A DNA stretch of 64,000 bases from a virus. Shown piece by piece: positions 6,246 through 63,482 of the stretch. Position numbers and translations under genes: made by a program. The number at the start of each line of letters is the position of its first letter. Positions within the stretch are counted from its first letter, which is position 1. A model generated the notes under the pieces. It worked only from the letters and a program-made list of their open reading frames with translations, was not told the DNA's origin and searched no databases. The DNA lies in IMG/VR virus record IMGVR_UViG_3300050821_008578, positions 1-64,000 of that record. The stretch is one strand, 5' to 3'.

Positions 6246-6578
6246 ATGGCTAAAGGTGCTAAACCTGAATCGATTAAGAAAGTAGAAATCGGTGTCTTAA
6301 ATAAGGCTACTGGTCAAGTTGATTCAACTAAAGAAATTCGATGGCGTGAAACTGGTAAGAGTATGAAATATTTTGTAGGTAATAGCCAACCTACAAAAAA
6401 AGTTGAAATGACTAATCCTGCTAAAGTGATTAGTCGTTTAAATCATCAAGTTATTTTATGTTATGATGGTGAAGGTATGGTTCTTCCTCCAAATGGTCGT
6501 AAAATAGTTCCTGATTTTAATAAATTAGGTGTTTTGCCTCGTGGTGTAACCGTAATTCCAATGACTACTAAGAAATAA
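6246..6578 (+). CDS. Small basic structural-region protein
   Basis: A 110-residue lysine-rich protein with a TGGAG ribosome site, immediately before the tail sheath gene. It carries no recognisable motif; a short beta-rich core is likely. Position suggests a head-tail joining or sheath-related accessory, without further support. Confidence 0.5.
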   Translation: MAKGAKPESIKKVEIGVLNKATGQVDSTKEIRWRETGKSMKYFVGNSQPTKKVEMTNPAKVISRLNHQVILCYDGEGMVLPPNGRKIVPDFNKLGVLPRGVTVIPMTTKK

Positions 6579-6589
6579 GGAGTTATTAC

Positions 6590-8587: not shown

Positions 8588-8613
8588 ATTTTTAAAGAAT
8601 AAAGAGGTATAAA

Positions 8614-34650: not shown

Positions 34651-34947
34651 TCAATTTAGAATCGAATTAATTTCTGGACAATTTGTATGATCACATACAA
34701 AAACTGATGAATTAAATCCTGGAAGATCTAAAGCAATTAGAAGTTGTAGTTTAGGAAATTTTGTAGTAAAATGACCATATAATTGAGGATCTAAAAATAC
34801 TATATTATTTTTATTATAATAAACTGGTGAAGTAAAATTAAGTAGATCAGAAACATTTTTTAATTGTTCTTGCATATCTCCTTGTACTTCTTCTAATTCA
34901 CGAGTTTCAATATCTAATAATGATTTTGCATTTTCTACTGTATCCAT
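34651..34947 (-). CDS. Small protein between nucleotide genes, unknown
   Basis: A 98-residue protein with an acidic helical N-terminus (about 1-40) and a beta-rich second half with two nearby cysteines (VCDHTNC). It overlaps the preceding thyA-like gene by one base and precedes nrdB. Context suggests a nucleotide-metabolism accessory, but there is no recognisable domain. Confidence 0.5.
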   Translation of the reverse strand: MDTVENAKSLLDIETRELEEVQGDMQEQLKNVSDLLNFTSPVYYNKNNIVFLDPQLYGHFTTKFPKLQLLIALDLPGFNSSVFVCDHTNCPEINSILN

Positions 34948-36044
34948 TATTTCTCCTTATTCATAACCCAACTTGGTGGGGTAAATTTATTACAAATTAC
35001 AGCACTTGCTAGATCACCACTTAAATGTGGCAATGGTCTATGACTAACTTCTTCTAGTTTTTCATCTATATAACATTGCAATAAATATGCATAATCATAT
35101 AATTGATTATTTTGAGTTGGTACACCATATTGTTTAAAAATTGAATTTACTGTATAATTTAAATTACCATTAATTTGTTCACATAAATGATAATATAATT
35201 CATGAAAAAAGTTTTGCATTTCTACTTGATTATTAATATGACCTAAAGTAATAGGTAATACTTCATTATTAACTGATCTTTGTTTATTCATTTCTTTATT
35301 TTTAACTATTTCTTTACCTTGTTTAGAAGTTTCCTCATATAAATGCAAAGAAATAATATTATTAGAAAAATAACCTAGTGTTAAATTTTTAAATACATCT
35401 GAATCTTGGTTTTTCAATAATGAAAGCACACATTCTTGTAGAAATGTCCACTCAGGAATATTAATTCCTGACATACCAAATAAACAATCATTACTACGAA
35501 CAGTAACCTTCATATTTAATTTGTTATCTCTCACCCAAAAATAAATAAAATTATTGCATGGAATATCTTTACTTTGATCAAGACCATATTTATCTTTAAG
35601 TGCAGTATGTGTATCTTGTTCTGCACTCCAAATATTCATAACTGCTCTACGGGTATTTGGACCATCCTGTTTAAAAATATCTAAAACATTTTGAATTTGA
35701 TTATAGAAATATAATCTGGGGCCATAGGCACCACGCCATGTTTTTCCGTCATCACTATAATTCTTGGCTCTAGGAAGAAGAAAATTCATCAATGGTTCTA
35801 ATTTATTCTCTCCAGCCATAATCCAAAATATTTCACCAATAGTTGCATAAATATTATTAGTTCTTCCTTCTAAATATAAATGCCTGGCTTTAGGATTAGT
35901 AAGAACTACTTCTTGATCGCACAATTCAAAAGTTTCTCCATTTCTTGAATCAACCTTATTACCTTTAGTTAATAATGTTTCACACACATCAAAAGTTAAT
36001 TCATTCAATGAATTACCAGAAATAATATCTTTTTTTAAAATCAT
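34947..36044 (-). CDS. Thymidylate-synthase-fold enzyme, probable dUMP hydroxymethylase
   Basis: A 365-residue member of the thymidylate synthase/dNMP hydroxymethylase fold. The nucleophile is Cys163 in IPCNN, followed by the phosphate-binding R183-S-N-D. Asn195 (GINI) is kept, which in this family favours a uracil substrate over cytosine. The TS QWR region is replaced by GAYGPR (105-110) and the usual His after the Cys is Asn, as expected for a diverged enzyme. With the hmU kinase and pyrophosphorylase-like genes nearby, 5-hydroxymethyl-dUMP synthesis is the likeliest role; ordinary thymidylate synthase is the alternative. Confidence 0.7.
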   Translation of the reverse strand: MILKKDIISGNSLNELTFDVCETLLTKGNKVDSRNGETFELCDQEVVLTNPKARHLYLEGRTNNIYATIGEIFWIMAGENKLEPLMNFLLPRAKNYSDDGKTWRGAYGPRLYFYNQIQNVLDIFKQDGPNTRRAVMNIWSAEQDTHTALKDKYGLDQSKDIPCNNFIYFWVRDNKLNMKVTVRSNDCLFGMSGINIPEWTFLQECVLSLLKNQDSDVFKNLTLGYFSNNIISLHLYEETSKQGKEIVKNKEMNKQRSVNNEVLPITLGHINNQVEMQNFFHELYYHLCEQINGNLNYTVNSIFKQYGVPTQNNQLYDYAYLLQCYIDEKLEEVSHRPLPHLSGDLASAVICNKFTPPSWVMNKEK

Positions 36045-36658
36045 TAAACACCTTTTTCTATTAGTTCAAGAATAGCTTTAGTAATTACTTCTTTTGATTG
36101 ATCTCCAACTGGAAGATAATAAATACTCTCTTCTGGAGTAAATACAAAATCATTACCAGTTGATAAATAATCAAAAAATGAAAAATAGTGAGCCTTCAAT
36201 TCTTTCCATTTAAATGTTTTTTCAAATTCATCTGTTGGGTCATTAATATATTTAATATCTTTATCTAAGAAAATAATAATAATATCAAAATTATCTTTAA
36301 TAACTTTTGAATAAGTTTCTTTATGAATTTTAAATAGTAAATTATTTTGATCATCTGTTAATGATGATGTTTTACCATAAACATAAGTAGAAATATGACA
36401 CCTATCCATAACAATATCTCTATCAGAATCAAATTCAGTAAATATATCTACAATATGAGATACAGTATGTAATAATTGTCTAGAAAATGGGTCATATGAT
36501 GGATTATTTTTAACTTCATCTCTCAAAAACCCAACTGAATTAGTAGGACTGGGTTGAATGATTAATTTAGCATTAAAATGATTGGCTAGAATTTTTGTTT
36601 GTACAGATTTTCCTACACTATCCGGTCCTTCTAGAACAATTAATTTACGTTTTGCCAT
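36044..36658 (-). CDS. Deoxynucleoside monophosphate kinase
   Basis: A 204-residue thymidylate-kinase-type P-loop enzyme: GPDSVGKS near the N-terminus, DRCHIST as the DR-x-x-x-S substrate motif at about residue 83, and a LID-like charged region. It overlaps the thyA-like gene by one base, so the two are coupled. It probably phosphorylates the product of that enzyme (dTMP or hydroxymethyl-dUMP) toward the triphosphate used by the polymerase. Confidence 0.75.
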   Translation of the reverse strand: MAKRKLIVLEGPDSVGKSVQTKILANHFNAKLIIQPSPTNSVGFLRDEVKNNPSYDPFSRQLLHTVSHIVDIFTEFDSDRDIVMDRCHISTYVYGKTSSLTDDQNNLLFKIHKETYSKVIKDNFDIIIIFLDKDIKYINDPTDEFEKTFKWKELKAHYFSFFDYLSTGNDFVFTPEESIYYLPVGDQSKEVITKAILELIEKGV

Positions 36659-36696
36659 TTATTCTCTCTAATTATTTTATTAATAATATTGGTGGT

Positions 36697-36717
36697 GTTA
36701 TTTTTATTTAAAATAAC
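36697..36717 (-). terminator. A/T-rich hairpin between two - strand genes
   Basis: GTTATTTT and AAAATAAC form a perfect 8-bp stem around TATTT in an 82-base gap. It lies upstream of the kinase gene in transcription terms. It has no GC clamp, so full termination is doubtful; it may be a weak processing or stabilising structure. Confidence 0.25.
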
Positions 36718-36740
36718 GTTAATTATATAATTTAGATATC

Positions 36741-37070
36741 TTATTTTGGAAGGATAAGTCCTGATGGTGCTTTAATAATTCCACTTTTTACAGCTTTATA
36801 ATCTTGAACCATATCTTTATAACCATTAGCTAACATTGGTGTTATTTGTAATTCACAAAGAATAGCATTTCTATTTATATCAATAAAATTTTGTTGTTGT
36901 GATAATATATTAAATGGTATAAAAGTTAATGTTGGCCTTCCACCAGGATGTGTTGGTGGTTGTACTTGAGGTATCATTGGCACAATCCAAGCAATTTTAT
37001 CATCTTGTACCATTTCTTCAGTAATTATATCAATTCCAGACACTAATTTATAATGTTTTATATTATCCAT
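36741..37070 (-). CDS. Small beta-barrel protein (Sm/SH3-like), unknown
   Basis: ATG 37070 is chosen because the product then begins MDNIKHYKLVSGIDIITE, typical of a small Sm/SH3-like phage family; a GTG at 37127 would overlap the previous gene heavily. GGAAAG lies upstream but with a long spacer. The 109-residue product is beta-rich with a proline-rich loop (QVQPPTHPGGRP) and ends in a basic proline-rich tail. Function unknown. Confidence 0.55.
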   Translation of the reverse strand: MDNIKHYKLVSGIDIITEEMVQDDKIAWIVPMIPQVQPPTHPGGRPTLTFIPFNILSQQQNFIDINRNAILCELQITPMLANGYKDMVQDYKAVKSGIIKAPSGLILPK

Positions 37071-37962
37071 AAAAATACCGGTTCTTTCCTTTTCCATTTG
37101 ATAAGTTATAATGTTTTCGAAATTCACACAAACATGACTGAATATCCATAAATGATAGATAATCAGAATTAAAATAAGAATTTTTATAATTTATTTCCAA
37201 CCAATTTTTGTTTTCTTGTTCTTCTAAATGTTCAAATATTTCTGATTGAATAGAAGCTAAATATTTAATTAAATCTTCTGCATTATTTTTATTAACAATA
37301 TCTTTAAAAATAATCTCTAAACCAGCATAAGCACCTGGTCCGCAAGTAACCCAATCATTATTTCCAAATTTAGAAATTTTAGCATATCCTAAATCTAACA
37401 TTATTTGCCCAGCAATAAATGGACCAACTAATGGAATTTCTCTAAGTTTTAATATTTGTTCTTCTGGTGTTTGTTTTGATTTAAAATCTTCTAAAAATAG
37501 ATGGACTCTTTCAGCCAACCAATCCAACATATATAGAACTTGAACATGTTTTCTATTACTTAGTTCTTTATTCCATATTGCTGGAAGAATAAGATATGCA
37601 TCATTCCAGATAGATGGTTTTACTTTAGATTTTTCGTCTAATTCTTTAACTAAAGATTCAACATTAAAATTATGCGGTATTAGTATATAATTAAATACTC
37701 TTCCATCAAATGTTTGATCTAAATTAAAGAATCTATAAGCCACTATATTAAGAAATTTGATAGTATCATTAAGATCAGTATTAATTATTTTTTTAATTAT
37801 ATATTTTGAACCTCTATCTAATTCTCTATATACATTACAAGATTTAAATTTTTGAAATATAGGATCAGTGGTCCAAGGTTTTGGTTCTTTAAGAACTTCT
37901 TTTTTATGATAAATCAAATGTCTATCATAGATAAATTCAAAAAAAGATAATTTATCAATCAT
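37063..37962 (-). CDS. Alpha-glutamyl/putrescinyl thymine pyrophosphorylase-like (amino acid:DNA transferase)
   Basis: A 299-residue helical protein with the family's hallmark KPWTTDPIFQKFK...NVYRELDRGSKYI near residues 28-55 and FLNIVAYRFFN. The second half has a helix-hairpin-helix region (REIPLVGPFIAGQIMLDLGY) and GNNDWVTCGPGAYAGL, related to HhH-GPD DNA glycosylases. In the known pathway these proteins displace pyrophosphate from phosphorylated 5-hydroxymethyl-dU in DNA with an amine such as putrescine or an amino acid. Its neighbours are DNA ligase and the small barrel gene. Confidence 0.75.
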   Translation of the reverse strand: MIDKLSFFEFIYDRHLIYHKKEVLKEPKPWTTDPIFQKFKSCNVYRELDRGSKYIIKKIINTDLNDTIKFLNIVAYRFFNLDQTFDGRVFNYILIPHNFNVESLVKELDEKSKVKPSIWNDAYLILPAIWNKELSNRKHVQVLYMLDWLAERVHLFLEDFKSKQTPEEQILKLREIPLVGPFIAGQIMLDLGYAKISKFGNNDWVTCGPGAYAGLEIIFKDIVNKNNAEDLIKYLASIQSEIFEHLEEQENKNWLEINYKNSYFNSDYLSFMDIQSCLCEFRKHYNLSNGKGKNRYFYG

Positions 37963-39806
37963 TGTATATTTTTATTATTTAAAATATCATTAAATTCTTG
38001 TTCATTTACTACTTTAATACCCAACTTTTCTGCAGCTTTGGATTTAGATGACTTTTTATCAGAATTACAAACTAGATATTTAACATCTTTAGATATTGCA
38101 CTTACCACTAAAATCCTTTTTGATATCATAGTTTTAACCCAATCATCCCTCTTTACTGATAAACTACCTGTAACAACCACTTTGAATTTATAAGTAGATT
38201 CTTCTACTATGGTAGGAATAAGTTTAAACATTTTAGATATACGCATCCAATGATTCTGATTTAATGCCAAAGAATCAACAACATTCTTACTCACTTTACT
38301 TTCTTCAATTTGAAGCATTGAAATAGTAGTTGGGTTATATTTACCCAATTTATTAGCATTGGCTTCACTAAGACCTGGGATATTAATCATAAACCAAAAC
38401 TCCTTGTAAAATAGACCATTTTCTAATTTAATTTCAATATTTTTCTCAACTTGATGAAGTAATTTACCTCTGTGATCACCAAACTTATTTATTAAAACAT
38501 TTAATCTACCTGAATTTGATTTAGGCCCAGATTGTTTAAATAATGGAATAAAATTATCTATGTCTTGAATATCAGAAAAATCTTCATTAACTGGAAATTG
38601 GTCAAGCCAATCATTTAATATAGAACTAGCAACCCCATCAGGTTGTCCTGCAAAATACACTAAATTAAAAATAGGTGTTCTTGATTTAGCATTACATTGA
38701 ATATTTGGACAATTAAGATAAGAACCTTTCCATTCAGTTGGTGTTTGACAACTAGGACATTTATCAGGCACTTCTCCTGATACTCCTTTAATAACTGATT
38801 TAATATAAGGAATTACTTCTCCTGAACGAGTAATTTCAACAATAGCACCTTTACCAATATTATTTTTTACTACATAATCACCATTATGTGCAGTAGCAGC
38901 AGAAAGCATAGCTCCTGATAATTCAACTGGATCATAAACAATCAAAGGGGTTATATGGCCTTTAATTCCTGTATTCCATTCAACATCTTTAACTACCACC
39001 TGTTTAGTTTCAGATTCAAATTTATACGCAACAGAAATTTCTTTATTATCAATAATTTTATTTTCTGTAATTACTATACCATCAGTTAAATATTCAGAAT
39101 TTAATCTCCATTTATTTAAATCAGCCTCTGTAACATTATTTAAATTAATAAATACATCTGCCGTTTCTAAATTTTGACTTTTAATAAATTCTAATACTTG
39201 AATTTTGGAATCAATACGACAAAATCCACCCAATACTGAATAAAAAACAGCACTAAAATCCTTTACTATTTCAGTATCTTCTAGTGAATTTAATACACCT
39301 GATACCATATTTCTAGAATTTGAATATTCTTTAGAATATTTTTCTTCAAATGTTTTAGTTTTTATTAAAGCTTCACATCTAAAACAAACTTGACCAGTCC
39401 ATGGAATATTAGTGGGAACAAATTTAGATACGTGTTGTGAAACATCTATTCCTACTTTACCATTTCCTCTAGTCAATGCTCTTTTAAAAGAACCATTTAT
39501 ATATTCAACAGTAATTGATGAACCATCATATTTTTTAGTTATTACTGGATTTTCAATATCACCGACTGAATCAACTTTTTCTAATGAACCAACTAATCCA
39601 AATTTATGAGGGTATTTTCTACCTTCAATTTTCCAGTCTTCAAATGCACCAAATCCAGGTTGAGAAAGAATAGGGTTACTTGGATCTAAAGATTTTAATT
39701 CTTTAATCCAATAGTCAAATTGATCATCAGTAGTTACTGAGTTACCTTGATAATAAGATTTTGATAAATCTTTAATAATGTTAACTAATTCTTCTACTTT
39801 ATTCAT
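37959..39806 (-). CDS. ligA: NAD-dependent DNA ligase
   Basis: A 615-residue ligase joining nicks with NAD. The adenylated lysine is Lys92 in the KYDG motif (K92-Y-D-G). A four-cysteine zinc finger (CPSC...CPNIQC) lies at about residues 335-360, followed by the HhH region and a C-terminal BRCT domain (about 530-610, VVVTGSL...). It is slightly shorter than bacterial LigA, which is about 670 residues, with a reduced N-terminal Ia domain. ATGA overlap couples it to the pyrophosphorylase-like gene. Confidence 0.92.
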   Translation of the reverse strand: MNKVEELVNIIKDLSKSYYQGNSVTTDDQFDYWIKELKSLDPSNPILSQPGFGAFEDWKIEGRKYPHKFGLVGSLEKVDSVGDIENPVITKKYDGSSITVEYINGSFKRALTRGNGKVGIDVSQHVSKFVPTNIPWTGQVCFRCEALIKTKTFEEKYSKEYSNSRNMVSGVLNSLEDTEIVKDFSAVFYSVLGGFCRIDSKIQVLEFIKSQNLETADVFINLNNVTEADLNKWRLNSEYLTDGIVITENKIIDNKEISVAYKFESETKQVVVKDVEWNTGIKGHITPLIVYDPVELSGAMLSAATAHNGDYVVKNNIGKGAIVEITRSGEVIPYIKSVIKGVSGEVPDKCPSCQTPTEWKGSYLNCPNIQCNAKSRTPIFNLVYFAGQPDGVASSILNDWLDQFPVNEDFSDIQDIDNFIPLFKQSGPKSNSGRLNVLINKFGDHRGKLLHQVEKNIEIKLENGLFYKEFWFMINIPGLSEANANKLGKYNPTTISMLQIEESKVSKNVVDSLALNQNHWMRISKMFKLIPTIVEESTYKFKVVVTGSLSVKRDDWVKTMISKRILVVSAISKDVKYLVCNSDKKSSKSKAAEKLGIKVVNEQEFNDILNNKNIQ

Positions 39807-39809
39807 TAA

Positions 39810-39911
39810 TTAAATTTCTTTCATTATAAATTCAATATTATAGCCTCTATTAGTATACCATAATATTACTTCATTACTTTCTTCTAAACTTAAATATATT
39901 ATATTATTCAT
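39810..39911 (-). CDS. 33-residue small ORF before the ligase gene
   Basis: ATG 39911 directly abuts the stop of the upstream gene (TAAATG), and TAA 39810-39812 lies three bases before the ligase ATG. The 33-residue product is a short amphipathic peptide (starts MNNIIYLSLEES). The tight junctions on both sides suggest it is translated; function unknown. Confidence 0.4.
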   Translation of the reverse strand: MNNIIYLSLEESNEVILWYTNRGYNIEFIMKEI

Positions 39912-40244
39912 TTAATTTAATCCATCCCAAAAAGTATGGAAAACCTCCAAATTAGTTTTTCCTGATAACTTATCATGTTCTTTATCAAAGAATTCTTTCA
40001 CTACTTTAGCTAATTCACCTTTTAAATAATCACCTTTTTTATAAGGATACTTCTTTGATGATTTAATTATTTCTAAAACTTTAAAATCTTTTATTTGAAC
40101 AGCCAAATTTAATTCATCACCAATATTTAAATGAAAAGATGGATTTTTAAGAGGTTCATGGTAGACATGAAAAGAAACACCTTTATATCTACCAAGTGTA
40201 GCCATTTCATTTAATTTTTTTAATAAATTTTTGGCTCTATTCAT
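39912..40244 (-). CDS. Small protein, unknown
   Basis: A 110-residue basic protein with an N-terminal helix (NRAKNLLKKLNEMATLG) that looks like the start of several small phage proteins, a beta-rich centre, and a helical lysine-rich C-terminus. It overlaps its upstream neighbour by one base. No function can be assigned. Confidence 0.55.
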   Translation of the reverse strand: MNRAKNLLKKLNEMATLGRYKGVSFHVYHEPLKNPSFHLNIGDELNLAVQIKDFKVLEIIKSSKKYPYKKGDYLKGELAKVVKEFFDKEHDKLSGKTNLEVFHTFWDGLN

Positions 40245-40477
40245 TAATCACCTTTTAGATTTGTAATTTTATCTTTCATAACTACTTCAAATGAACCTTC
40301 TGGTTGAATATTTTCAAGAGAAAATTCATATGCCATTTCATTTAATTCTGATTCTGTCATATCTTTATGCAATTCAACTTCTTCTTCTGAATCACAACCA
40401 GAATAATTACATGTTGAATACAACACTACTGTTGTTCCTTTGGGATATACTTTTTCTTTTCTTTCTACTTTATTCAT
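40244..40477 (-). CDS. Small acidic protein, unknown
   Basis: ATG 40477 is chosen because GGAGG overlaps the apparent upstream TTG codon and gives a proper ribosome site. The 77-residue product is acidic, with a CNYSGC pair and a predicted beta-alpha layout. It is the first gene after promoter-like element 2. Confidence 0.55.
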   Translation of the reverse strand: MNKVERKEKVYPKGTTVVLYSTCNYSGCDSEEEVELHKDMTESELNEMAYEFSLENIQPEGSFEVVMKDKITNLKGD

Positions 40478-40478
40478 C

Positions 40479-40529
40479 TCTACCTCCAACTATCTTATCG
40501 GAACATTTTTCTAAAACAAAAGGGTTTTA
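40479..40529 (-). promoter_or_regulatory. Promoter-like repeat element, copy 2
   Basis: The 36-bp core (40494-40529) is identical to copies 1, 3 and 4; copies 2 and 4 stay identical for 51 bp, including the AGTTGGAGGTAGA ribosome site. The core ends about 13 bases before GGAGG, so the transcript would have a very short leader. It separates the kinase gene (ends 40542) from the small acidic gene. Confidence 0.65.
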
Positions 40530-40541
40530 GGAAAAATAGAT

Positions 40542-41354
40542 TTATTTAATACTTTCATAAAATTGCTCACAAGCTTCATTATTAAAAGGAATAAATTTAC
40601 TCATTTCTAGATTATTATTTATAATTCCTTCTACCAAAGATAGATCTTGAGTTTGACCATTTATTCTCAAATTAGAATTATTATTACAATAACTTACAAA
40701 TTTATCTGCTAGTTCACCCAATCCTAAAAATTTGAGATAATTATATCCAAATACATATACTGGGTCATCGAATTTCTGAGTATGTACTTCACATTTATTT
40801 AAAGTTGGTGATTTTAACTCTTTAGATAAATTTTTATTATATTGATAGTTATTCTTAGTTGCTGTTTCTGTACCCCAGCATGTACCTTTAATTATCTTAC
40901 CACCATTACGATTAAAGCATCTATCAATCATTGATTCTCTTTTATCATAAAAGAAATATTGATAGAAAACATTATTATACCCAAATTTATTATGTATTGA
41001 ATCTAGATTATATACTGGGCTAAGAGTTAATGGGTATCCTTCACAAATAAAATTCTTATTACTAAATTTTTTAATTAACCAATAAACAAACCAAGCACCA
41101 AATCCTGTATTTAAATAATCTAGACCTGTCCAACTATGTAATTTACTTGCTCTACCCAATGCATATTTACCAGTTATAAATATATTTAGATCTGGAAATT
41201 CAATAGCAATGGGACATTTCTTATTTTTAAATTCAGTATGATAAATTTGATAATTATAATTTTTACTTAATAAGAATCTTAATAGCTGTTCAACTCTAGT
41301 ACCTTTACCTGAACCTGAAATACCTTTAAGTTGTGCATATGAAGAAGTAATCAT
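40542..41354 (-). CDS. 5-hydroxymethyl-dU DNA kinase, P-loop subunit
   Basis: A 270-residue P-loop kinase with GISGSGKGTR at residues 11-20, a CEGYPLTLSP motif and a DRCFNRNGGK segment. This N-terminus is characteristic of HMUDK enzymes, which phosphorylate 5-hydroxymethyl-dU in DNA to a pyrophosphate that is then replaced by an amine. It is three bases from the helical gene, which in other phages I recall as fused to it. A free nucleotide kinase is less likely because no such kinase family shares this motif pattern. Confidence 0.65.
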   Translation of the reverse strand: MITSSYAQLKGISGSGKGTRVEQLLRFLLSKNYNYQIYHTEFKNKKCPIAIEFPDLNIFITGKYALGRASKLHSWTGLDYLNTGFGAWFVYWLIKKFSNKNFICEGYPLTLSPVYNLDSIHNKFGYNNVFYQYFFYDKRESMIDRCFNRNGGKIIKGTCWGTETATKNNYQYNKNLSKELKSPTLNKCEVHTQKFDDPVYVFGYNYLKFLGLGELADKFVSYCNNNSNLRINGQTQDLSLVEGIINNNLEMSKFIPFNNEACEQFYESIK

Positions 41355-41356
41355 TT

Positions 41357-42379
41357 TTATATTTCCAAATCTTTATATTGATTAAGTTCAGGTAATGTTC
41401 CTGTATCCAAAAATATATTCATTCTTGATTTATCTATTTTCTCGTTTACTATAGTATTACCATTAGGAACACATTCTTTCATCCAGTCATAAATAATATT
41501 AAAATCTACCCCATAAAAATATGTTTTAGATTTATCAATATCCTCTAACAGTCTTGCCAAATAATAACCAAGATAACGTCCATCTTTACGTCTAAATAAT
41601 TTTTTAAATGAACATAAAGCAGTTTCAACATAGAAATAATCTACTTTAACATCTGGAAATCTTAGTTTAATCTCATTTATAATAGAATCAGTTTCATAAT
41701 CAAACCATTTTATCATAGCTGAAGTATATTTAACTGATTGTTTTACTTTTTTAGTTCCATTATCTATATAAATTCTAGATGCTAATTCTGGTTTATCAAG
41801 AATATAACATAATCCATCAGTAGGACTTTGAGTATTCATGCCAAATTGTATTGAAGTTGGTTCAATATTTAACCCACAACAGTATTTAAGATGTTGCATA
41901 TAAAAGAATAAAACATATCTACCAAAATATCTAATATTACTTAATTCAGATTTAAGTTTATTATAATTTACTTTAGGATCATCACTATTACAAATATCTT
42001 TGAAATATTGTTCTTGTGTTCTACCAGCTAATAGATCTTTATAACTAGAAATAATTAAATCTAATTTACCACGATTCCATTTTACATCCGATTGATGATG
42101 AATCTGTTTGTAATTGTTTCTATTCCAAACTTTAATATCTTCTAAATCAATATTTTCAAGATCTGGAATATAATTGAATATAGCATAAGCTGAAGCGGCA
42201 TCATAAGTAATACCATAAAGAAGACAGAAATAATATCGCTGTTCTAAATTATATTCTTGTCTTTCAAATAAATAATTAGTAACAGGAATAGCAGTATCTA
42301 TATCATTATTCCTATACTGCCATACATAATATTTTATAAATGCTTCTCTACGATTCTCAGGTAGGCGAAAATCCATCAT
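41357..42379 (-). CDS. HMUDK-type helical domain protein
   Basis: A 340-residue helical protein beginning FRLPENRREAFIKYYVWQYR..., with EQRYYFCLLYGITYDAASAYAIF at about residues 46-68. This resembles the helical domain I recall as attached to 5-hydroxymethyl-dU DNA kinases. Here it is a separate gene directly before the P-loop subunit, so the two probably act as one enzyme. It overlaps the SET gene by ATGA. The alternative is another pyrophosphorylase-like protein of the same pathway. Confidence 0.55.
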   Translation of the reverse strand: MMDFRLPENRREAFIKYYVWQYRNNDIDTAIPVTNYLFERQEYNLEQRYYFCLLYGITYDAASAYAIFNYIPDLENIDLEDIKVWNRNNYKQIHHQSDVKWNRGKLDLIISSYKDLLAGRTQEQYFKDICNSDDPKVNYNKLKSELSNIRYFGRYVLFFYMQHLKYCCGLNIEPTSIQFGMNTQSPTDGLCYILDKPELASRIYIDNGTKKVKQSVKYTSAMIKWFDYETDSIINEIKLRFPDVKVDYFYVETALCSFKKLFRRKDGRYLGYYLARLLEDIDKSKTYFYGVDFNIIYDWMKECVPNGNTIVNEKIDKSRMNIFLDTGTLPELNQYKDLEI

Positions 42380-42762
42380 TTATCCAGATATGAGCGTTTA
42401 CTTCCAGGACTATCAATAATAACTACACAATTATCTGAACCACATTTACATTGAAATGATGTAGATAATTTACTTTCATTATCTAAATAATTAAAAGTTA
42501 TTTCTTCTCCAATGCTAATATATTTTTTAGCCCTCATAACTCTATTAGTTTTATCTACATAACAATTTGGTGAACAACTATGATTTGTATAAGCACCCCA
42601 TGGATTTACAACATGTAAATTGGGTGATAGTTCAATTGAACGTAAACTAGAATTTTGAGAAAATTCACCCATATCTAAATTAAATACTTCTGCATCTGGT
42701 AAGAATAGATTATTAGCAACTAATGATACTTGCCCAAATTTATTTTTCTTGAATGTTAACAT
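42376..42762 (-). CDS. SET-domain protein
   Basis: A 128-residue minimal SET domain: NHSCSPNC near residue 60, then GEEITFNY about 25 residues later, and a post-SET-like zinc cluster CKCGSDNC at about 103-110. SET proteins use S-adenosylmethionine to methylate lysines. It begins inside the end of the GNAT gene and ends inside the start of the helical kinase gene, so it belongs to the modification cluster. Its substrate is unknown; phage or host proteins, or a step in base decoration, are possible. Confidence 0.75.
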   Translation of the reverse strand: MLTFKKNKFGQVSLVANNLFLPDAEVFNLDMGEFSQNSSLRSIELSPNLHVVNPWGAYTNHSCSPNCYVDKTNRVMRAKKYISIGEEITFNYLDNESKLSTSFQCKCGSDNCVVIIDSPGSKRSYLDK

Positions 42763-43387
42763 CAGTATCTCCTAATTGGGATTTAACTAAATCATACATA
42801 TATCTATTAGAATATTTATTATTCAATAATTCTTTTTCTGAATTAGTTTTATCTGTTCTTCTAATAATTAGATTCCAAACTGATTGATTATTAATACCAA
42901 ATTCTTCATATTTCATATTCTCATATTTCTTAAAATCTTCAATATCATTACTTAATAATGGTAAATTTACATAATATGAATTTTCTTTAGTTTTACTCCA
43001 ATATACTAATCCGAGTTTATTATAAAATCTCATTGTATGAGTTAAATCATCACAATTCATACGGATTCTTGTCTTCCCAGAATCATAAGCTAATTTTACT
43101 GCTTCTCTAATTAATCTTTTAGCATATCCTTTTTGACGATATTTAACTGGAGTAACAATATTAAGAATGGTAATATATTTTTGTTTAGTTATATTATAAA
43201 ATAATACAGAAGTTATTTCACCATTATCTTCAATTGCCATAACAGGTTTTTCTTCATATTTATAAAAACTAGCATAAAAAGCCATAGAACCACTAGAAAA
43301 ATTTAGTGTTTCCTTATCATTAATATCTATTTTATTATGAAATTTATTAGCATATTCTTCTTTTGAATGAAAGAATACAATATTCAT
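42740..43387 (-). CDS. GNAT-family N-acetyltransferase
   Basis: A 215-residue protein with a GNAT core: VTPVKYRQKGYAKRLIREAVKLA carries the acetyl-CoA loop (R-Q-K-G-Y-A) at about residues 78-95, followed by FYNKLGLVYW. The last 60 residues are an added helical tail. It overlaps SET and amidoligase genes by a few bases. Some thymine-hypermodifying phages carry acetyltransferases that finish the decoration, so it may acetylate the modified base; peptide acetylation is an alternative. Confidence 0.7.
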   Translation of the reverse strand: MNIVFFHSKEEYANKFHNKIDINDKETLNFSSGSMAFYASFYKYEEKPVMAIEDNGEITSVLFYNITKQKYITILNIVTPVKYRQKGYAKRLIREAVKLAYDSGKTRIRMNCDDLTHTMRFYNKLGLVYWSKTKENSYYVNLPLLSNDIEDFKKYENMKYEEFGINNQSVWNLIIRRTDKTNSEKELLNNKYSNRYMYDLVKSQLGDTDVNIQEK

Positions 43388-44211
43388 AATTCACCTTTTA
43401 AAATAAGTTCTCTATTTTTCAATACTGTTTCCATATCATTAAATTTAGTATTAGTTAATAGCCATTTCTTTTCTAATTCATGATCATATGGATATTCCTT
43501 TGGTAGATTAAAATTATTAGCCCAATCTTTAACTGGTTTTCTATCACTTAATGCTTGATCTAAATATTCCATATCAAATAGAAACATTTCCTGAAGATCA
43601 TTAATATTAATTGATGGATGGTGCCACCGAAATTCAATCGATCCTGATGTCCATAATGAATACAAATTAACTGAAAATCTTTTTGTTGTTTGCCATAGAA
43701 TTCTACCATCAGATACTACTGCATGACCTTCTTTAAATTCTTTAATAGTTTTAGCATTCATACAGTGATTATAACGCAATTCATTCATAATCTTACGATC
43801 AAATGATCTAAATGATTTTGTATTTCTACCCATTTCAGGAAGAATAGTAAAATACCATTTATTGTCTATAAACCATTGTCCATTCTCATTAGTATAACTA
43901 AGTATTTTCTTAAGACTATCTAGATCCTCTTTAGCACCTTCCCATGACAAATGAATATGTGTTACTGATTTATGATTCACTCTAGCCTCAGGAAATCTTT
44001 TAAATAATTCTTTAATTTTATTCATCATTTCATCTAATGAATAAGATGGTGTTGAATTGAATTCAATTCCTAATGGATAATCTAAAGCTGCAGCAATACC
44101 ATTGTGATTCATAATATCTGGATCGAAGGAAGTAGTCCAACCTTCAGGCAATGGTCTATCTTTTGGCACATCACATAATTCTAATTCAATACCTAGAGAA
44201 TATTTTTTCAT
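43384..44211 (-). CDS. Amidoligase (COOH-NH2 ligase), paralogue A
   Basis: A 275-residue glutamine-synthetase-fold amidoligase: GIELEL at residues 7-12, THIHLSW with His85 and His87, and TKRFSVNL...GSIEFRWHH with Glu193 and Arg195. These are the metal/ATP-binding elements of the family, which joins carboxyl and amino groups with ATP. A second copy lies two genes upstream. Overlaps by ATGA place it in one operon with GNAT, a MazG-like protein and a glutamine amidotransferase. Its substrate is unknown. Confidence 0.7.
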   Translation of the reverse strand: MKKYSLGIELELCDVPKDRPLPEGWTTSFDPDIMNHNGIAAALDYPLGIEFNSTPSYSLDEMMNKIKELFKRFPEARVNHKSVTHIHLSWEGAKEDLDSLKKILSYTNENGQWFIDNKWYFTILPEMGRNTKSFRSFDRKIMNELRYNHCMNAKTIKEFKEGHAVVSDGRILWQTTKRFSVNLYSLWTSGSIEFRWHHPSININDLQEMFLFDMEYLDQALSDRKPVKDWANNFNLPKEYPYDHELEKKWLLTNTKFNDMETVLKNRELILKGEL

Positions 44212-44510
44212 TTTGTACTTTGTACCATACCAAGTTGTTGGGAATATTTATAATATTTATTCACTTTTTCAGTTCTTTTTTTAATTTCACTTTCAAATGT
44301 TTGATCGCATTGAAATATATTCTCTCCAGTCATTATTCCTAAAATAACATGTAAATCAATAAGTTCATCTTGAAGCCGTTCAGCATTATTTTTACTTTGA
44401 CCTGGTTGAATTTCATTAAATCCAAATTGTTGAGTTTTCAATGCTCTTTGTGCAACTTCTGTACATTCTTCTGCCAATTTGGTAAGAAGAAATTGAGATC
44501 TTGTCATCAT
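44208..44510 (-). CDS. MazG-like nucleotide pyrophosphohydrolase
   Basis: A 100-residue protein with the MazG pattern: KLAEECTEVAQRA (E-E-x-x-E) and ERLQDELIDLHVIL (E-x-x-D) about 35 residues later. These residues bind magnesium in (d)NTP pyrophosphatases. Between the two amidoligases and overlapping paralogue A by ATGA, it may remove unwanted dNTPs or a by-product such as a nucleoside triphosphate. Cellular MazG also lowers stress signalling. Confidence 0.7.
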   Translation of the reverse strand: MMTRSQFLLTKLAEECTEVAQRALKTQQFGFNEIQPGQSKNNAERLQDELIDLHVILGIMTGENIFQCDQTFESEIKKRTEKVNKYYKYSQQLGMVQSTK

Positions 44511-44515
44511 TTATT

Positions 44516-45298
44516 TTAGCCTTTACTTTTAGTCTGTTGGTATTTATTATGTCGTTCTAAATTAAATTCAATCTCAGTAGGGAATTTATATCCATTCCAT
44601 CTAAGTGATTCTATTGGTTTATCATTTAATGCTGCTTCCATAAAATCTCTGCAATATTCAAAAGTGCTTTCTACTACTTCAGGATCCAAAGTGGCATAGA
44701 AATGACGAAATTCAATAGTACCATGTTTTTTAGCTGAACTCAAGTTAACACTATACCGCCTACCAGTTTGGGGTAATACTCTACCGTCTTTTACTTTATA
44801 AAATGAATTAAAAAAGTCTTCTAATGTTTCAGCATTCATACAAAATTTGTATTTCCAATCTGGTAATGACTGTCTATCAACTTTTGCATAACCCCATGCT
44901 GCTGCATCCATAAGTGGGTGTTTAGTGGGGTTGAATGTTCTTGATAAAATATATTCAGCATTAATTTGAAAATAAGATAAAATTTTCTTTAATGCACTTA
45001 AATCTTCATTCAATCCTGGATAAGAAACATGGAAATGCGTGTGACTACGATGGGTTACAGTTACACCTGGTAGTAATTTAACAGCTAATTCAAATAATTC
45101 TTTTTGTTCTTTGATAGTATTAGTTGGTTTAGTATTCACTTCACCACCAATATCATGTAACTTACCTGATGGATCAATTGCTATGCCATCTGAATTTACA
45201 ATATCTTTTTCATTTGAATTCCAAGATAATCCATCAGGTAATACAATAGATCTAGATACATCTGAAAATTCATATTCGGCGCCAAAAGTAAAATTCAT
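44516..45298 (-). CDS. Amidoligase (COOH-NH2 ligase), paralogue B
   Basis: ATG 45298 is chosen because it overlaps the amidotransferase stop as ATGA; a TTG nine bases upstream is less likely. The 260-residue product shares with paralogue A the GAEYEF start, SHTHFHVSY with His86/88/90, and GRRYSVNL...GTIEFRHF. The two proteins are clearly related over their whole length but not close, so they may act in succession or as a complex on different ends of a substrate. Confidence 0.7.
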   Translation of the reverse strand: MNFTFGAEYEFSDVSRSIVLPDGLSWNSNEKDIVNSDGIAIDPSGKLHDIGGEVNTKPTNTIKEQKELFELAVKLLPGVTVTHRSHTHFHVSYPGLNEDLSALKKILSYFQINAEYILSRTFNPTKHPLMDAAAWGYAKVDRQSLPDWKYKFCMNAETLEDFFNSFYKVKDGRVLPQTGRRYSVNLSSAKKHGTIEFRHFYATLDPEVVESTFEYCRDFMEAALNDKPIESLRWNGYKFPTEIEFNLERHNKYQQTKSKG

Positions 45299-46038
45299 AA
45301 CTGCCAATCCTGAAGATTAATTCCTTCAATTTTATCTAATATAACAACCTTATTAGCTTGTAATCCATAAACCGTTCCCGGTTCTGTTTTGGTTATATTT
45401 AACAGCTTAGTAGAGTCTTCAAAACCTACTAAAGACCTTTTAATAATCTCTTTGGTTGAAGCTACAATAGTAAATTTTGAATATCCTTCTAGTTCAGCAT
45501 AATATAATGGACGTCTACCATTACGATAGAATTGAATATTACCATCAACCCATAATTGACATATAGCCATAGAAAAATGTATATCATCCTGATTTTTGCT
45601 TAAAGTGAGAGGGTTAACACCATTTGACATTTTAATATGGGCAATTTCAGTATCATTAGTAGTTTTGCATTCTACATTAAATAACGTTTTCCACTGATTT
45701 AGGTTAGCTTGAGTTATTACCCCATTCATAGAAATAGATAATTCACCATCAGCAATAGGTTGTGCATTTTTAATATCTGGATCACCCGAGGTACTATATC
45801 TTGTATGTGCTATAAGATTAATAGATCCATATTTTTGGATCTCTTCTTCAATATGAAACCAGTACTTGTCTGTAAATTCTCTTGATGGAATTTTATCTTT
45901 AAGTGTTGTAAGTCCATATTTAGAGATATAAGAAACACCAGTACTATGTTTACCTCTAATTTGACTTTCTTCCAATAATTTACGAACTATTGGTAAATCT
46001 CTAACATCATTTGATCTAATACCTATTACACTACACAT
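45295..46038 (-). CDS. Class II glutamine amidotransferase
   Basis: I start at ATG 46038 so that Cys2 (MCSVIG) becomes the N-terminal nucleophile required by Ntn amidotransferases; the longer frame would hide it. RGKHSTG (28-34), LIAHTRYSTSG, SMNGVI and TNDTEI match the glutaminase motifs of PurF/GlmS/asparagine synthetase-type domains. There is no fused synthetase domain in its 247 residues. It releases ammonia from glutamine, and next to two amidoligases it probably feeds them. Confidence 0.8.
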   Translation of the reverse strand: MCSVIGIRSNDVRDLPIVRKLLEESQIRGKHSTGVSYISKYGLTTLKDKIPSREFTDKYWFHIEEEIQKYGSINLIAHTRYSTSGDPDIKNAQPIADGELSISMNGVITQANLNQWKTLFNVECKTTNDTEIAHIKMSNGVNPLTLSKNQDDIHFSMAICQLWVDGNIQFYRNGRRPLYYAELEGYSKFTIVASTKEIIKRSLVGFEDSTKLLNITKTEPGTVYGLQANKVVILDKIEGINLQDWQL

Positions 46039-50639: not shown

Positions 50640-50841
50640 TAGATTTTTCTTTTATATGTTTAAGTTTAAATTCATTAACAAGTTTATTACGTTCTTTTTT
50701 AGTTTTACATGATCTAACTTGTTCTAATTCTTCTTCTGTGAATTCTGGTTTTTCATTTTTCCAATAACTAAAATTAGTAGAAAATCTAGGTTGATTACGA
50801 ATTGCTGCTAAAGCAGCTGCTACTGCCAACTTATTATTCAT
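50632..50841 (-). CDS. Small basic protein, unknown
   Basis: A 69-residue protein: an Ala-rich N-terminal helix (NNKLAVAAALAAIRNQPRF) and a charged helical C-terminus (KKERNKLVNEFKLKHIKEKS). It overlaps both the sigma-like gene and the polymerase gene by a few bases. Function unknown. Confidence 0.5.
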   Translation of the reverse strand: MNNKLAVAAALAAIRNQPRFSTNFSYWKNEKPEFTEEELEQVRSCKTKKERNKLVNEFKLKHIKEKSNV

Positions 50842-53800
50842 TTTACCTCCATTTTAATTTCACATGTCCATTTTTCATGATCTCTATATACTTGATCAAT
50901 AGGAAAAGATTTTACTTCTTTTTTATCTAAAATATTCATTTCAAATTTATATGCTTTAGATGCTACATTTTGAAAAGTTAGAAAATCTTTTCTTAATGCT
51001 TCACCCTCTAAAATAGCATGATTGTCACCAATTCCTTTTACTTTAAATTCAATAGCTGAACCCCAAGAACTACCAATAGAAAAATCCATCTTTAAAGGAC
51101 AAATAATCCATGGATATAGTTCTGCCATTTTCACTTCATATAAGTATTGTAATCTTTTTATAATTTGAAATAACTCTCCAGGATAAGTGTCATATTCCAA
51201 AGAGTCATGAACACTAGCCACAAATAATGATTTGTATCCATCTTGTCTCAAACCATAAATTAGATGATTATTAGTAATTTCAATAATATCTGATGCGCTA
51301 CTTTGAACTGGATAGTTTACTGCACAGTTCCTAGCATGTGCAAGTAATCCCTTATCCTGAGAGAAGGCTTCGGGGACGGGGATGATTCTACCCATTGGAG
51401 TAAGAGCATAACCATCTTTAAGAACCTGTTTATGCTGGCTTGCAATCCACGCTTTTAATGCTGGTCTCCCATCAAAGAAATATCCTAAAATAGATTCTGC
51501 TTCTTCAGATGATACACCTAATTCAGGTGCCATAGAATATGCTGTTTTACCAAAAGCAATACCGAAATTAATTGTTTTACCATGACCACGTTGTTCTTTT
51601 GTTATTTCATCTACTGAAACTTTTCTTCCTAACTTATAAGAATAAATTAATGCTGCTGTATCTACATGTAGATCAATATCTTTAGAATATGCATCAACCA
51701 TTGATTGTTCTTTAGCAATACTAGCTATAATTCTTAATTCCAACTGAGAAGCATCAGGTGCTACAAATAACCCACCTTCACTCTTCCATCTACTGGTGAA
51801 TATTCGTTTAAAATCGCTTTTACTCGGAATGGAATGAAAACCAGATGAAAGACGCCCAGTTACTGTGCCTGGGATATAAAAATCAGGTTTATATGATGTA
51901 CCAATCATATCTTTAGGAATACCATTTAATCTACTATTCAATACTGCAATTTCATTACTTTTTGACAATGAAGTTAAAAATTTATTTTGTTCAGATCCTT
52001 CTTCACACTTTGTTTTTAATAAAAATTCAATTGCATCAGCATTGGCCTGTGGCTTTTTATTACCTGATTTACCACCATCAGTCATGAATTGTTTCATAGC
52101 TGGGAATGCAAAATATTTATCTCCATAGATAATATCTCTAATTTGATCCCTAGATGTAGCAGAAAAAGCCTGTTCTTCCATTTCAGCATCAGTCATTTTC
52201 TTTCGTTTAGTTTTATTTAATTCAATCAATCCTTGTTTCTTATCATGAATAAATTTCTTTACTACAGAAGTAGATCTCATTTCTTGTTTGAACTCTGTTA
52301 AGGCATTATCGAATTTATCTTTGATAAATCCATACATCTCCATATCAATTTCAATTCCTTTTGTTTCTGCTTCAGCAAATGGAATACTAGCTCTAATAAT
52401 TTCTTCAAGAATATGTTCAGTACCTGGTACCATTCTTTCTTCATCACTTTGATGAACTTTCATATTCCAATAAGCATCTAGAGCTGAATATTCACACAGA
52501 ATACCAGTAGGTATATTTCCAAAATGTCTATCTTTAATAGCAGTAAATTTACTTAGATATCCTTCACCCATCTTCTCCCAGTCATCAGTAACATTGAATT
52601 GTCTTCGAGCACGATCCTTTAATTTAAGACTTGATCTACCACCATCAAGTTGGTGTCCACTAATTAATGTATCATTTTTAATTTTTATTTTATATAAATT
52701 AATACCTAATTCAATTGATTCAAATCCTAAATCAAACTTAAGATTTTGACCAACAAGAGGTACTGTTTCTACAATTTCTTTAACTAAAGATTGAATTTTA
52801 ATTACTTGTGATGGTGATACTGAAAAAGGAATAGTATATTTATCTTTGATAAATTGAAATTGTTCTTCAAAGTAATTTTCAATAGAATTATCTAAAAAAT
52901 CTAATTCACATTTAGATTCTTCAATATCAGCGCTATCATTTCCACGTGAATCAATCCAAGTATAAATTTCTTCTCTACGTTTAGCCAAATCTTGTGGTGC
53001 ATGAATATTCATTGCTTCTAAAGCATTAGCTTTATGATAAGTATTATTTATCTCTAATGGGATTGAGACACCAATAGGATTATCTTCATGACAAAATGAA
53101 TACATAATAGACTTACCTCTATATGGAGAAAGAGCCCCTTCGGGATTCTCCTCACCATCTTTAGGTCTAGTTTCAATATCAAATACTGTATAATCTATTT
53201 TCCCAGATTTATATTTAGATAATAGATTTTGAAGATATTCAATTGCTTCATCAGGATTTAATGTTTTAACCCTTTTTGAAATATCAATATCATTTTCTTT
53301 AAAATTAAGTGCTTTAACAAAAGTTTGTTTAAATCTGGAAAGAAGATTAGGGTTTTTAATAACAGCTAATGGACTATAATTAGGAATAACATTAAAAGTC
53401 TTATTAAACACTTTTAATTTTTTACCAATTCCTAATTCACTAGTTATACCCTTAGTATTTTCAATCAATGATTCTAATACTGTATTTCCTAATGTAACAA
53501 TAGGAATAGATTCATCAAACCCCATCAACTCTTTAAATAGAATTGTTTTACAATTATCAATTTCTTCTTTATTTGGTAGACGATAGCCACCATTTTTAGT
53601 TATAGGGTCAGCATGAGTATAACATTTTAGAAGAGTAGTATAATAATATATTGTATCAAAATTATTAGGTATATCTAATGCTAATTCAATTAGTTTTTCA
53701 CTATCTTTAGTAAAAAGATTTCCTCGGTCATCTCCAGGAATATCACCTATAATTATTACTGTTGGATTTGTAAATCCTGTTTTATTTTTGATAAATGGGT

Positions 53801-53873
53801 TATCACATGATTTATGTAAACCACATTTATTACAAATTGGGAACATTTCAACCTTTTTTCTTAGCTTGTTCAT
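50838..53873 (-). CDS. DNA polymerase I-type with N-terminal UDG-like domain
   Basis: A 1011-residue replicative enzyme. Residues about 1-190 form a family-4 uracil-DNA-glycosylase-like domain: Cys14, Cys17, Cys84 and Cys108 match the iron-sulphur ligands, but the catalytic GE is GD (43-44) and the active-site His-Pro-Ser is replaced by NYSPL, so it may not cut. Residues about 225-470 are a 3'-5' exonuclease (FDIETRP, NLKFDLG, YSALDA). The polymerase part has DASQLELRI, RGHGKTINFGIAFGKTAY and VHDSLEYD (HDS instead of HDE). SPO1, an hmU phage, also has a UDG-polymerase fusion. Confidence 0.88.
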   Translation of the reverse strand: MNKLRKKVEMFPICNKCGLHKSCDNPFIKNKTGFTNPTVIIIGDIPGDDRGNLFTKDSEKLIELALDIPNNFDTIYYYTTLLKCYTHADPITKNGGYRLPNKEEIDNCKTILFKELMGFDESIPIVTLGNTVLESLIENTKGITSELGIGKKLKVFNKTFNVIPNYSPLAVIKNPNLLSRFKQTFVKALNFKENDIDISKRVKTLNPDEAIEYLQNLLSKYKSGKIDYTVFDIETRPKDGEENPEGALSPYRGKSIMYSFCHEDNPIGVSIPLEINNTYHKANALEAMNIHAPQDLAKRREEIYTWIDSRGNDSADIEESKCELDFLDNSIENYFEEQFQFIKDKYTIPFSVSPSQVIKIQSLVKEIVETVPLVGQNLKFDLGFESIELGINLYKIKIKNDTLISGHQLDGGRSSLKLKDRARRQFNVTDDWEKMGEGYLSKFTAIKDRHFGNIPTGILCEYSALDAYWNMKVHQSDEERMVPGTEHILEEIIRASIPFAEAETKGIEIDMEMYGFIKDKFDNALTEFKQEMRSTSVVKKFIHDKKQGLIELNKTKRKKMTDAEMEEQAFSATSRDQIRDIIYGDKYFAFPAMKQFMTDGGKSGNKKPQANADAIEFLLKTKCEEGSEQNKFLTSLSKSNEIAVLNSRLNGIPKDMIGTSYKPDFYIPGTVTGRLSSGFHSIPSKSDFKRIFTSRWKSEGGLFVAPDASQLELRIIASIAKEQSMVDAYSKDIDLHVDTAALIYSYKLGRKVSVDEITKEQRGHGKTINFGIAFGKTAYSMAPELGVSSEEAESILGYFFDGRPALKAWIASQHKQVLKDGYALTPMGRIIPVPEAFSQDKGLLAHARNCAVNYPVQSSASDIIEITNNHLIYGLRQDGYKSLFVASVHDSLEYDTYPGELFQIIKRLQYLYEVKMAELYPWIICPLKMDFSIGSSWGSAIEFKVKGIGDNHAILEGEALRKDFLTFQNVASKAYKFEMNILDKKEVKSFPIDQVYRDHEKWTCEIKMEVK

Positions 53874-62881: not shown

Positions 62882-63068
62882 AAGTCTCACCCTTAGCTAG
62901 AATATATTCAACAGTTACTTTCATAGTACCAGTAAATTCACCAGGTATTTTCTTAATATTATTATTAATATAATTACCATATTCCCAAGCATTCATAATA
63001 TCTTCACCTACTTCAATAAAGGATTCAAAAGTATATGCTCTTTCCATTACTAAAATATTTTTATTCAT
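62874..63068 (-). CDS. Small protein before recA, unknown
   Basis: A 64-residue protein that overlaps the RecA start by a few bases. It is acidic-to-neutral, with an amphipathic helix in the centre and a beta strand near the C-terminus (FTGTMKVTVEYIL). No function recognised. Confidence 0.5.
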   Translation of the reverse strand: MNKNILVMERAYTFESFIEVGEDIMNAWEYGNYINNNIKKIPGEFTGTMKVTVEYILAKGETYE

Positions 63069-63481
63069 TTAGTTTCCTTATTTACATCCCAGTCTTTACG
63101 TTCAAAATTTTGTTTATTTTTTTCTACATATCGGGTAAATACTTCATCAGCATTCATACCTGATGCAAGAGCCATTGACATAAGAAAATGAAAACAATCA
63201 ATAATTTCTTCTTTTAGACCATCCATATCTTTGGTTTTATCCTTCCACCATTTTACATTTTGGGTAGCTGCTTCACGTGTTTCACATACTTCAGCTTGAA
63301 GTGCTGAAGCAAGTCTATCAACCCAATTTCTTCTATTTAATTCCTCAGTAAGAGTTGCACTATAACCACTTTTATAATGAACATTCATACTATCAGGATT
63401 ATAGTGTTGCATTTGTTTCTTTTCAATAACATTAGTATTAAGTTTCTCTTGCATTTCCATCATTTTAGTAAGCATATCCAT
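63065..63481 (-). CDS. Dimeric dUTPase/MazG-like pyrophosphatase
   Basis: ATG 63481 is chosen because GGTGG lies before it and it just follows the upstream stop; an ORF start at 63562 overlaps the previous gene. The 138-residue product has LQAEVCETREA...KWWKDK...EEIIDCFHFL, the metal-binding E-x-x-E...E-x-x-D pattern and W-W-K of dimeric dUTPases. Removing dUTP would matter for a phage that builds 5-hydroxymethyl-dU. General MazG-type activity is the alternative. Confidence 0.6.
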   Translation of the reverse strand: MDMLTKMMEMQEKLNTNVIEKKQMQHYNPDSMNVHYKSGYSATLTEELNRRNWVDRLASALQAEVCETREAATQNVKWWKDKTKDMDGLKEEIIDCFHFLMSMALASGMNADEVFTRYVEKNKQNFERKDWDVNKETK

Positions 63482-63482
63482 A

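Follow-up and report, generated by a model that had tools for sequence, protein, structure and literature searches.

The window analyzed here, the first 64 kb of the 78,261-base linear virus record IMGVR_UViG_3300050821_008578, carries a minus-strand operon at 34947-46038 whose genes make thymine hypermodification very likely, with predicted steps of hydroxymethylation and DNA-base phosphorylation plus some amine transfer. The core gene set is of an already known type; what is new, as far as the literature searched goes, is an amino acid:DNA transferase (ADDT) coupled to a glutamine amidotransferase (GATase) together with amide-forming tailoring enzymes. We lean slightly toward the reading that ADDT works, throughout a large uncultured-phage clade that includes this one, as the synthase partner of a glutamine amidotransferase: a paired or fused class II GATase would supply ammonia for direct attachment to 5-phosphomethyldeoxyuridine in DNA, giving 5-aminomethyldeoxyuridine, from which GNATs or amidoligases would then form amides. 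The genes concerned are as follows.

34947-36044, minus strand: predicted deoxyuridylate hydroxymethylase of thymidylate synthase (TS) fold, dUMP to 5-hydroxymethyl-dUMP (Pfam Thymidylat_synt, 1.4e-12; phrog_3676, 5.8e-84)
36044-36658, minus strand: dTMP-kinase-like P-loop protein, putative 5-hydroxymethyl-dUMP kinase (Pfam Thymidylate_kin, 1.3e-6)
37063-37962, minus strand: HMUDK_hel (HEL)/aGPT-Pplase1 family protein with the motif WTTDPI...NVYRELDR (Pfam HMUDK_hel, 8.6e-53)
40542-41354, minus strand: predicted 5-hydroxymethyldeoxyuridine (5hmdU) DNA kinase of the HMUD2 type, forming 5-phosphomethyldeoxyuridine in DNA (Pfam HMUD2, 2.3e-28)
41357-42379, minus strand: ADDT, amine-to-DNA transferase (Pfam ADDT, 2.4e-19)
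42376-42762, minus strand: small SET-domain protein, proposed with uncertainty as a tailoring methyltransferase (Pfam SET, 6.6e-10)
42740-43387, minus strand: GNAT acyltransferase, proposed to N-acylate the DNA amine (Pfam Acetyltransf_1, 1.4e-8)
43384-44211, minus strand: amidoligase 1, COOH-NH2 ligase family (33% identity to amidoligase 2; no Pfam Amidoligase_2 match)
44208-44510, minus strand: small helical protein, possibly MazG-like, overlapping amidoligase 1 by 4 nt (no Pfam match)
44516-45298, minus strand: amidoligase 2, COOH-NH2 ligase family (Pfam Amidoligase_2, 1.7e-4, exactly at the cut-off)
45295-46038, minus strand: stand-alone class II GATase, proposed ammonia source for ADDT (Pfam GATase_6, 6.9e-9)

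A preliminary description had predicted the pathway from four proteins (TS-fold enzyme, kinase, helical protein, and pyrophosphorylase-like protein) within 34947-42379. All four lie where it placed them, and each matches a curated family far beyond chance, as it had proposed to check. The range was nevertheless drawn too short because the SET, GNAT, amidoligase, and GATase genes at 42376-46038, most of which overlap by 4 to 23 bases, belong to the operon as well; inside the range, the dTMP-kinase-like protein next to the TS gene had gone unmentioned.

The 78-kb record is fragmentary, as its capsid protein is closest to those of 150-207 kb Rhizobium phages, and genes not found in it cannot therefore be counted as absent. 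For the major capsid protein (window 1612-3099), the RHph_Y65 group of Rhizobium phages, with genomes of 207 kb, is nearest (44.6%); RHph_Y65 has no ADDT, and megablast of the region against phages gave no match.

The TS-fold enzyme has the residues of a hydroxymethylase

A profile was built from the window protein and its homologues from phages phiA8-29, D506, ViI, M6, PaMx11, and SPO1. The nearest solved structure to this profile was the CMP 5-hydroxymethylase MilA (2e-38), with true TS at 1e-22 or weaker. We then aligned 51 linked phage TS-like proteins to MilA and to two TS of known structure, using Escherichia coli TS numbering. Cys146, Asp169, and Asn177 were retained in all the aligned TS-like proteins, whereas Trp80 was found in none of the 51 linked phage proteins, and the Leu143 position was occupied by Asp in 50 of them, as it is in MilA and SPO1 gp29 (Asp160 in the window protein). 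Trp80, Leu143, and His147 are all substituted in the window protein, as in the SPO1 dUMP hydroxymethylase and MilA. In TS, Trp80 and Leu143 keep solvent away from the reaction intermediate; their absence is consistent with hydroxymethylase activity, and Asn177 suits dUMP. The case that the window enzyme is a dUMP hydroxymethylase and not ThyA, as read from these residues, is strong but indirect. The Cys163 and uracil-type Asn195 pointed out in the preliminary description are both present and invariant in the family alignment, and plain ThyA, an assignment that, with the other proteins placed elsewhere, it would have taken as refuting its pathway, is disfavored. The dTMP-kinase-like gene and the TS gene overlap by 1 nt, and a homologue of the former (185 bits) adjoins TS in the uncultured-phage contig L039.

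The TS-fold enzyme and the kinases might only feed the nucleotide supply, with the other genes decayed or repurposed and thymine not hypermodified at all. The metagenomic origin of the record leaves room for such a reading, but we regard it as highly improbable: the reading frames are intact and the motifs conserved in all the genes, the TS-fold enzyme has hydroxymethylase-type residues, and L039 retains a complete orthologous cluster.

DNA kinase, ADDT, and HMUDK_hel

The HMUD2 kinase has an intact Walker A motif in its P-loop, LKGISGSGKGTR, and its family (5hmdU DNA kinase 2) bears out the earlier naming of an HMUDK-type P-loop kinase. It was the only HMUDK found; a search of the 78-kb record did not find an HMUD1-type kinase. 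The ADDT profile matched, among solved structures, the PaMx11 glycinyltransferase 8z2m at 2e-37, and an AlphaFold2 model of the window ADDT (pLDDT 94.4) had 8z2n/8z2m as its only credible fold matches. According to the titles of these structures, PaMx11 gp46 is a 5-phosphomethyl-2'-deoxyuridine glycinyltransferase.

By family, two labels of the preliminary description are interchanged. The protein at 41357-42379, which it had taken for the HMUDK-type helical protein, is assigned to ADDT and would be the transferase; the pyrophosphorylase-like protein at 37063-37962 is a member of HMUDK_hel and not the transferase. Some records label relatives of this protein aGPT-Pplase1, so the earlier wording matches one of its published names. 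The pathway of the M6-like phage SN1 includes both aGPT-Pplase1 and aGPT-Pplase2 (PMC9476957). The HEL profile matched no solved structure, and homology between HEL and ADDT was not established by profile comparison (11.6% probability). An NAD-dependent DNA ligase gene (37959-39806, minus strand) lies within the operon and overlaps HMUDK_hel by 4 bases.

HMUDK_hel and ADDT are common to ViI, M6, PaMx11, phiW-14, phiA8-29, and Vibrio phage D506, and neither is present in SPO1, which makes plain 5hmdU. HMUD2 occurs in ViI, phiA8-29, D506, and the window; HMUD1 occurs in ViI, M6, phiA8-29, and, weakly, PaMx11, but was not found in D506. The gene order kinase-ADDT-(HEL)-TS is common to the window, phiA8-29, and D506. 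It is because this core is shared with phages of known modified thymine such as ViI, and is absent from SPO1, that thymine hypermodification is very likely. The earlier suggestion of modified thymine is thus strongly supported by the family matches, by the hydroxymethylase residues, and by an equal gene set in phages with measured hypermodified thymine, but it rested on a misassigned transferase and missed a kinase and the GATase part.

GATase, amidoligases, and GNAT upstream of ADDT

The genes upstream of ADDT (SET, GNAT, amidoligase 1, the small open reading frame, amidoligase 2, and GATase) had been overlooked, and they make a different chemistry likely for the addition of the amine. The GATase starts with ATG-TGT at 46038, giving an N-terminal Met-Cys that puts the Cys nucleophile in place, and the family columns Cys, Arg, Asn-Gly, and Asp are invariant. 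For amidoligase 2, an AlphaFold2 model (pLDDT 93.5) matched best the folds of the carboxylate-amine ligase YbdK, glutamine synthetase, and gamma-glutamylcysteine synthetase. Amidoligase 1, whose orthologue in L039 scores 239 bits, and amidoligase 2 both retain the ExE, GxE, HxH, and ExR columns; G54, E56, H91, H93, R184, N188, E199, and R201 are invariant, and both the fold and the metal-site residues of the amidoligase superfamily are therefore present. GNAT homologues adjoin ADDT in contig L052 and in marine loci. The SET gene overlaps ADDT by 4 nt, and its homologue directly follows ADDT in L039.

In phages LUZ24 and SU10, a GATase and an amidoligase stand with an ATP-grasp protein and a gamma-glutamyl cyclotransferase in a module that has been called putative peptidoglycan modification (PMC11945000). 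The GATase, amidoligases, and GNAT of the window could likewise form a peptide- or cell-wall-modifying module that merely neighbors the DNA-modification genes. We consider this improbable, since ADDT is absent from the LUZ24 and SU10 records, the window cluster is joined to ADDT by translational overlaps, and GATase and GNAT are each fused to ADDT elsewhere, as described below. Neither an ATP-grasp nor a cyclotransferase gene was seen among the open reading frames beside the window cluster, the whole record not having been profile-searched for them.

GATase is linked and fused to ADDT in uncultured phages

Single-sequence ADDT, HMUD2, and HEL queries against viral contigs gave nothing, but profile scans worked: in IMG/VR, at least 486 related stretches were confirmed by the ADDT scan and at least 400 by the GATase scan. 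Among the at least 80 loci of the ADDT profile scan, GATase and a GNAT or amidoligase adjoin ADDT in nearly all whose flanks permit the comparison. Of the 93 ADDT loci that have 3 kb or more of upstream sequence, 60 have GATase within 4.5 kb of ADDT, and ADDT is present in all 34 GATase loci with 4 kb downstream; the proportions given here are upper estimates, the ADDT profiles having been seeded with GATase-linked members and the GATase scan with ADDT-linked ones. The GATase-free loci among the 93 are the Ackermannviridae/Vibrio group, M6, PaMx11, and the kin of these, and contig L048, where the GATase is fused. When ADDTs were reduced to 32 non-redundant sequences (≤75% identity), GATase was adjacent in 20, fused in 3, and lacking in 7, with 2 not assessable. 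GATase was found in none of 72 HEL loci that lack ADDT.

L048 encodes a single 662-residue GATase::ADDT protein directly ahead of HMUD1, HEL, and TS. The same fusion recurs in L200 (143.6 kb; 51% identity) and L201 (105.4 kb; 49% identity), and each of the three is above the cut-off for both Pfam families. In L146, the genes are HMUD2, GATase, an ADDT that carries a GNAT domain at its C terminus (an ADDT::GNAT fusion), HEL, and TS. In the GenBank phage collection, no record covered 80% of the fusion and the two halves occur together in none, which may explain why the GATase-ADDT link went unreported.

The L039 cluster runs amidoligase-amidoligase-GATase-ADDT-SET-opine dehydrogenase-amidoligase-PLP decarboxylase-HMUD2-HEL-small open reading frame-dTMP-kinase-like-TS (PLP, pyridoxal 5'-phosphate), which is nearly the order of the window. 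Its opine dehydrogenase (PF02317), third amidoligase, and group II PLP decarboxylase (PF00282), at 5647-9136, suggest that the added group is tailored further.

In 40 of 54 marine loci, the gene immediately before GATase encodes a Tet/JBP-type oxygenase (Pfam Tet_JBP, 1.4e-23, in L187), and the GATase-ADDT module seems, from these neighborhoods, to accept 5-hydroxymethyl bases from either a TS-fold or a Tet/JBP source. In L187, L159, L149, and most of L119-L198, some of them contigs of 160-170 kb, the operon comprises the Tet/JBP oxygenase, GATase, GNAT or amidoligase, ADDT, and a P-loop kinase. HMUD1-like matches in marine loci (20-40 bits) were not taken as HMUD1 because Pfam names one that was tested Ploopntkinase3. 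A possible 2-oxoglutarate-Fe(II) oxygenase (weak TauD match) adjoins a P-loop protein in L002 (7394-8729, near the right end of the record). GATase overlaps ADDT in L203, a contig of 237 kb that was assigned to a Prevotella metagenome-assembled genome in binning but is probably a phage contig.

Proposed pathway

From the families, residues, conserved operon, and gene fusions described above, we infer the chemistry of the pathway, in which the ammonia nucleophile and the acyl group are the most conjectural parts. First, the TS-fold enzyme would form 5-hydroxymethyl-dUMP, the neighboring P-loop protein would phosphorylate it toward the triphosphate, and the polymerase would insert it into DNA. 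Second, the HMUD2 kinase would phosphorylate the base in DNA to give 5-phosphomethyldeoxyuridine. Third, ADDT would exchange the phosphate for an amine, the amine being ammonia that the class II GATase liberates from glutamine, so that 5-aminomethyldeoxyuridine would arise directly. Finally, this amine would be acylated by the GNAT, the amidoligases, or both. We judge this whole pathway, including the supply of GATase ammonia to ADDT, to be fairly probable.

ADDT might instead add glycine or serine, as in ViI- or M6-like chemistry, with the GATase and amidoligases amidating the carboxylate or ligating another residue and the GNAT acylating the amine. The nearest characterized ADDT is a glycinyltransferase, the amidoligases are by fold COOH-NH2 ligases that directly follow the GATase in the window, and L039 carries the additional PLP decarboxylase, all of which would suit such chemistry. 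It is nonetheless an unlikely alternative in our estimate, because many GATase-ADDT loci have no amidoligase in the stretch examined and the three fused GATases are joined to ADDT, none of them to an amidoligase. In addition, neither radical SAM (PF04055) nor PLP decarboxylase (PF00282) had a match in the fragmentary record, a search that did not extend to M6's own PLP family.

Several observations, besides the seeding of the profiles mentioned above, weigh against ammonia transfer from GATase to ADDT. The window GATase is 2.9 kb from ADDT and adjoins an amidoligase, which it could be serving instead, and GATase and amidoligase occur without ADDT in LUZ24 and SU10. In the ADDT tree, which is midpoint-rooted with some weak nodes and leaves out the too divergent phiW-14 ADDT, the window and L039 are sisters (support 0.887) within the GATase-linked clade, yet the Ackermannviridae/Vibrio ADDTs nest in that clade and have no GATase.

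Other genes of the window

Two further genes belong to the replication and nucleotide-supply context.

50838-53873, minus strand: family A DNA polymerase (DNA_pol_A, 2.5e-51) with an N-terminal domain of the uracil-DNA glycosylase (UDG) superfamily (8.8e-9, in the first 230 residues)
63065-63562, minus strand: dUTPase_2, accessory dUMP supply (Pfam dUTPase_2, 1.1e-15)

The UDG-superfamily domain of the polymerase could be linked to unusual thymine or uracil in the DNA. A RecA-family protein gene (60665-62890, minus strand) is split by an intein that bears an HNH endonuclease (Pfam Intein_splicing, 3.4e-19; HNH_3, 2.1e-6).

Implications

To our knowledge, the known thymine hypermodifications all start from free amino acids or polyamines, and we know of no other glutamine-dependent amidotransferase that acts on a DNA base at this step; if the proposal is true, this would be the first. 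The GATase-ADDT pair would then take the place of the glycine-plus-flavin route, use 5-hydroxymethyl bases from TS-fold or Tet/JBP enzymes, and offer phage DNA a short route to a free amine. Given the interchangeable acylating enzymes next to ADDT, uncultured phages are predicted to have a family of DNA bases that bear amides, which should influence restriction, CRISPR, and sequencing of such phages, and the pathway enzymes are possible tools for linking groups to DNA. A full-text literature search for amidotransferase or amidoligase together with thymidine hypermodification found no paper on the link; Lee et al. 2018 and 2022 fell outside this search, and a prior mention there is possible.

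Comparison with known systems

The DNA of ViI (Ackermannviridae) carries 5-NeOmdU (PMC11721090; PMC6449724). ViI shares with the window a dUMP hydroxymethylase homologue, HMUD2, ADDT, and HMUDK_hel, but it adds HMUD1 and has no GATase in the ADDT locus, where the window has a GATase, two amidoligases, a GNAT, and a SET protein; the window ADDT also falls in the GATase-linked clade rather than in the Ackermannviridae clade of ViI. A direct ViI-type assignment was rejected on account of this placement and of the HMUD1 not found in the record. Vibrio phage D506 and its relatives, in which HMUD1 was likewise not found, have HMUD2, ADDT, HMUDK_hel, and TS in the same order as the window, but upstream of ADDT they have neither a GATase nor an amidoligase or GNAT. 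M6 (5-NedU) has the dUMP hydroxymethylase, ADDT (gp51), and HMUDK_hel (gp55) in common with the window and differs in its HMUD1 kinase (gp54) and the lack of a GATase; the radical SAM and PLP enzymes that mark the M6 type likewise had no match in the window's record, as judged by PF04055 and PF00282.

PaMx11 shares ADDT, HMUDK_hel, the dUMP hydroxymethylase, and an acetyltransferase with the window but uses a flavin enzyme and HMUD1, whereas the window has a GATase, HMUD2, and a GNAT of another subfamily. The order in PaMx11 and L081 is ADDT, flavin enzyme, acetyltransferase, HMUD1, HEL, and TS. A flavin-enzyme profile matched only L011, L081, and L042, with no match in the window; L042 has the order flavin enzyme, amidoligase, two HMUD1, HEL, and TS. 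The order in L201 is GATase::ADDT, HMUD1, a PaMx11-type acetyltransferase (236 bits), HEL, and TS, and the stretch examined gave no match to the flavin enzyme. The simplest reading of these gene orders is that the flavin enzyme and the GATase represent two routes to a bare 5-aminomethyl group and that the acetyltransferase, GNAT, and amidoligase are alternative acylators.

The LUZ24/SU10 module resembles the window in its class II GATase adjoining an amidoligase and differs in having ATP-grasp and gamma-glutamyl cyclotransferase genes and no ADDT. By its description, the CmoA/CmoX/CmoY system of Synechococcus phage S-B43 (PMC12783734) is alike in that an asparagine synthetase-related, amide-forming ligase tailors a DNA base, although the substrate there is carboxymethylcytosine.

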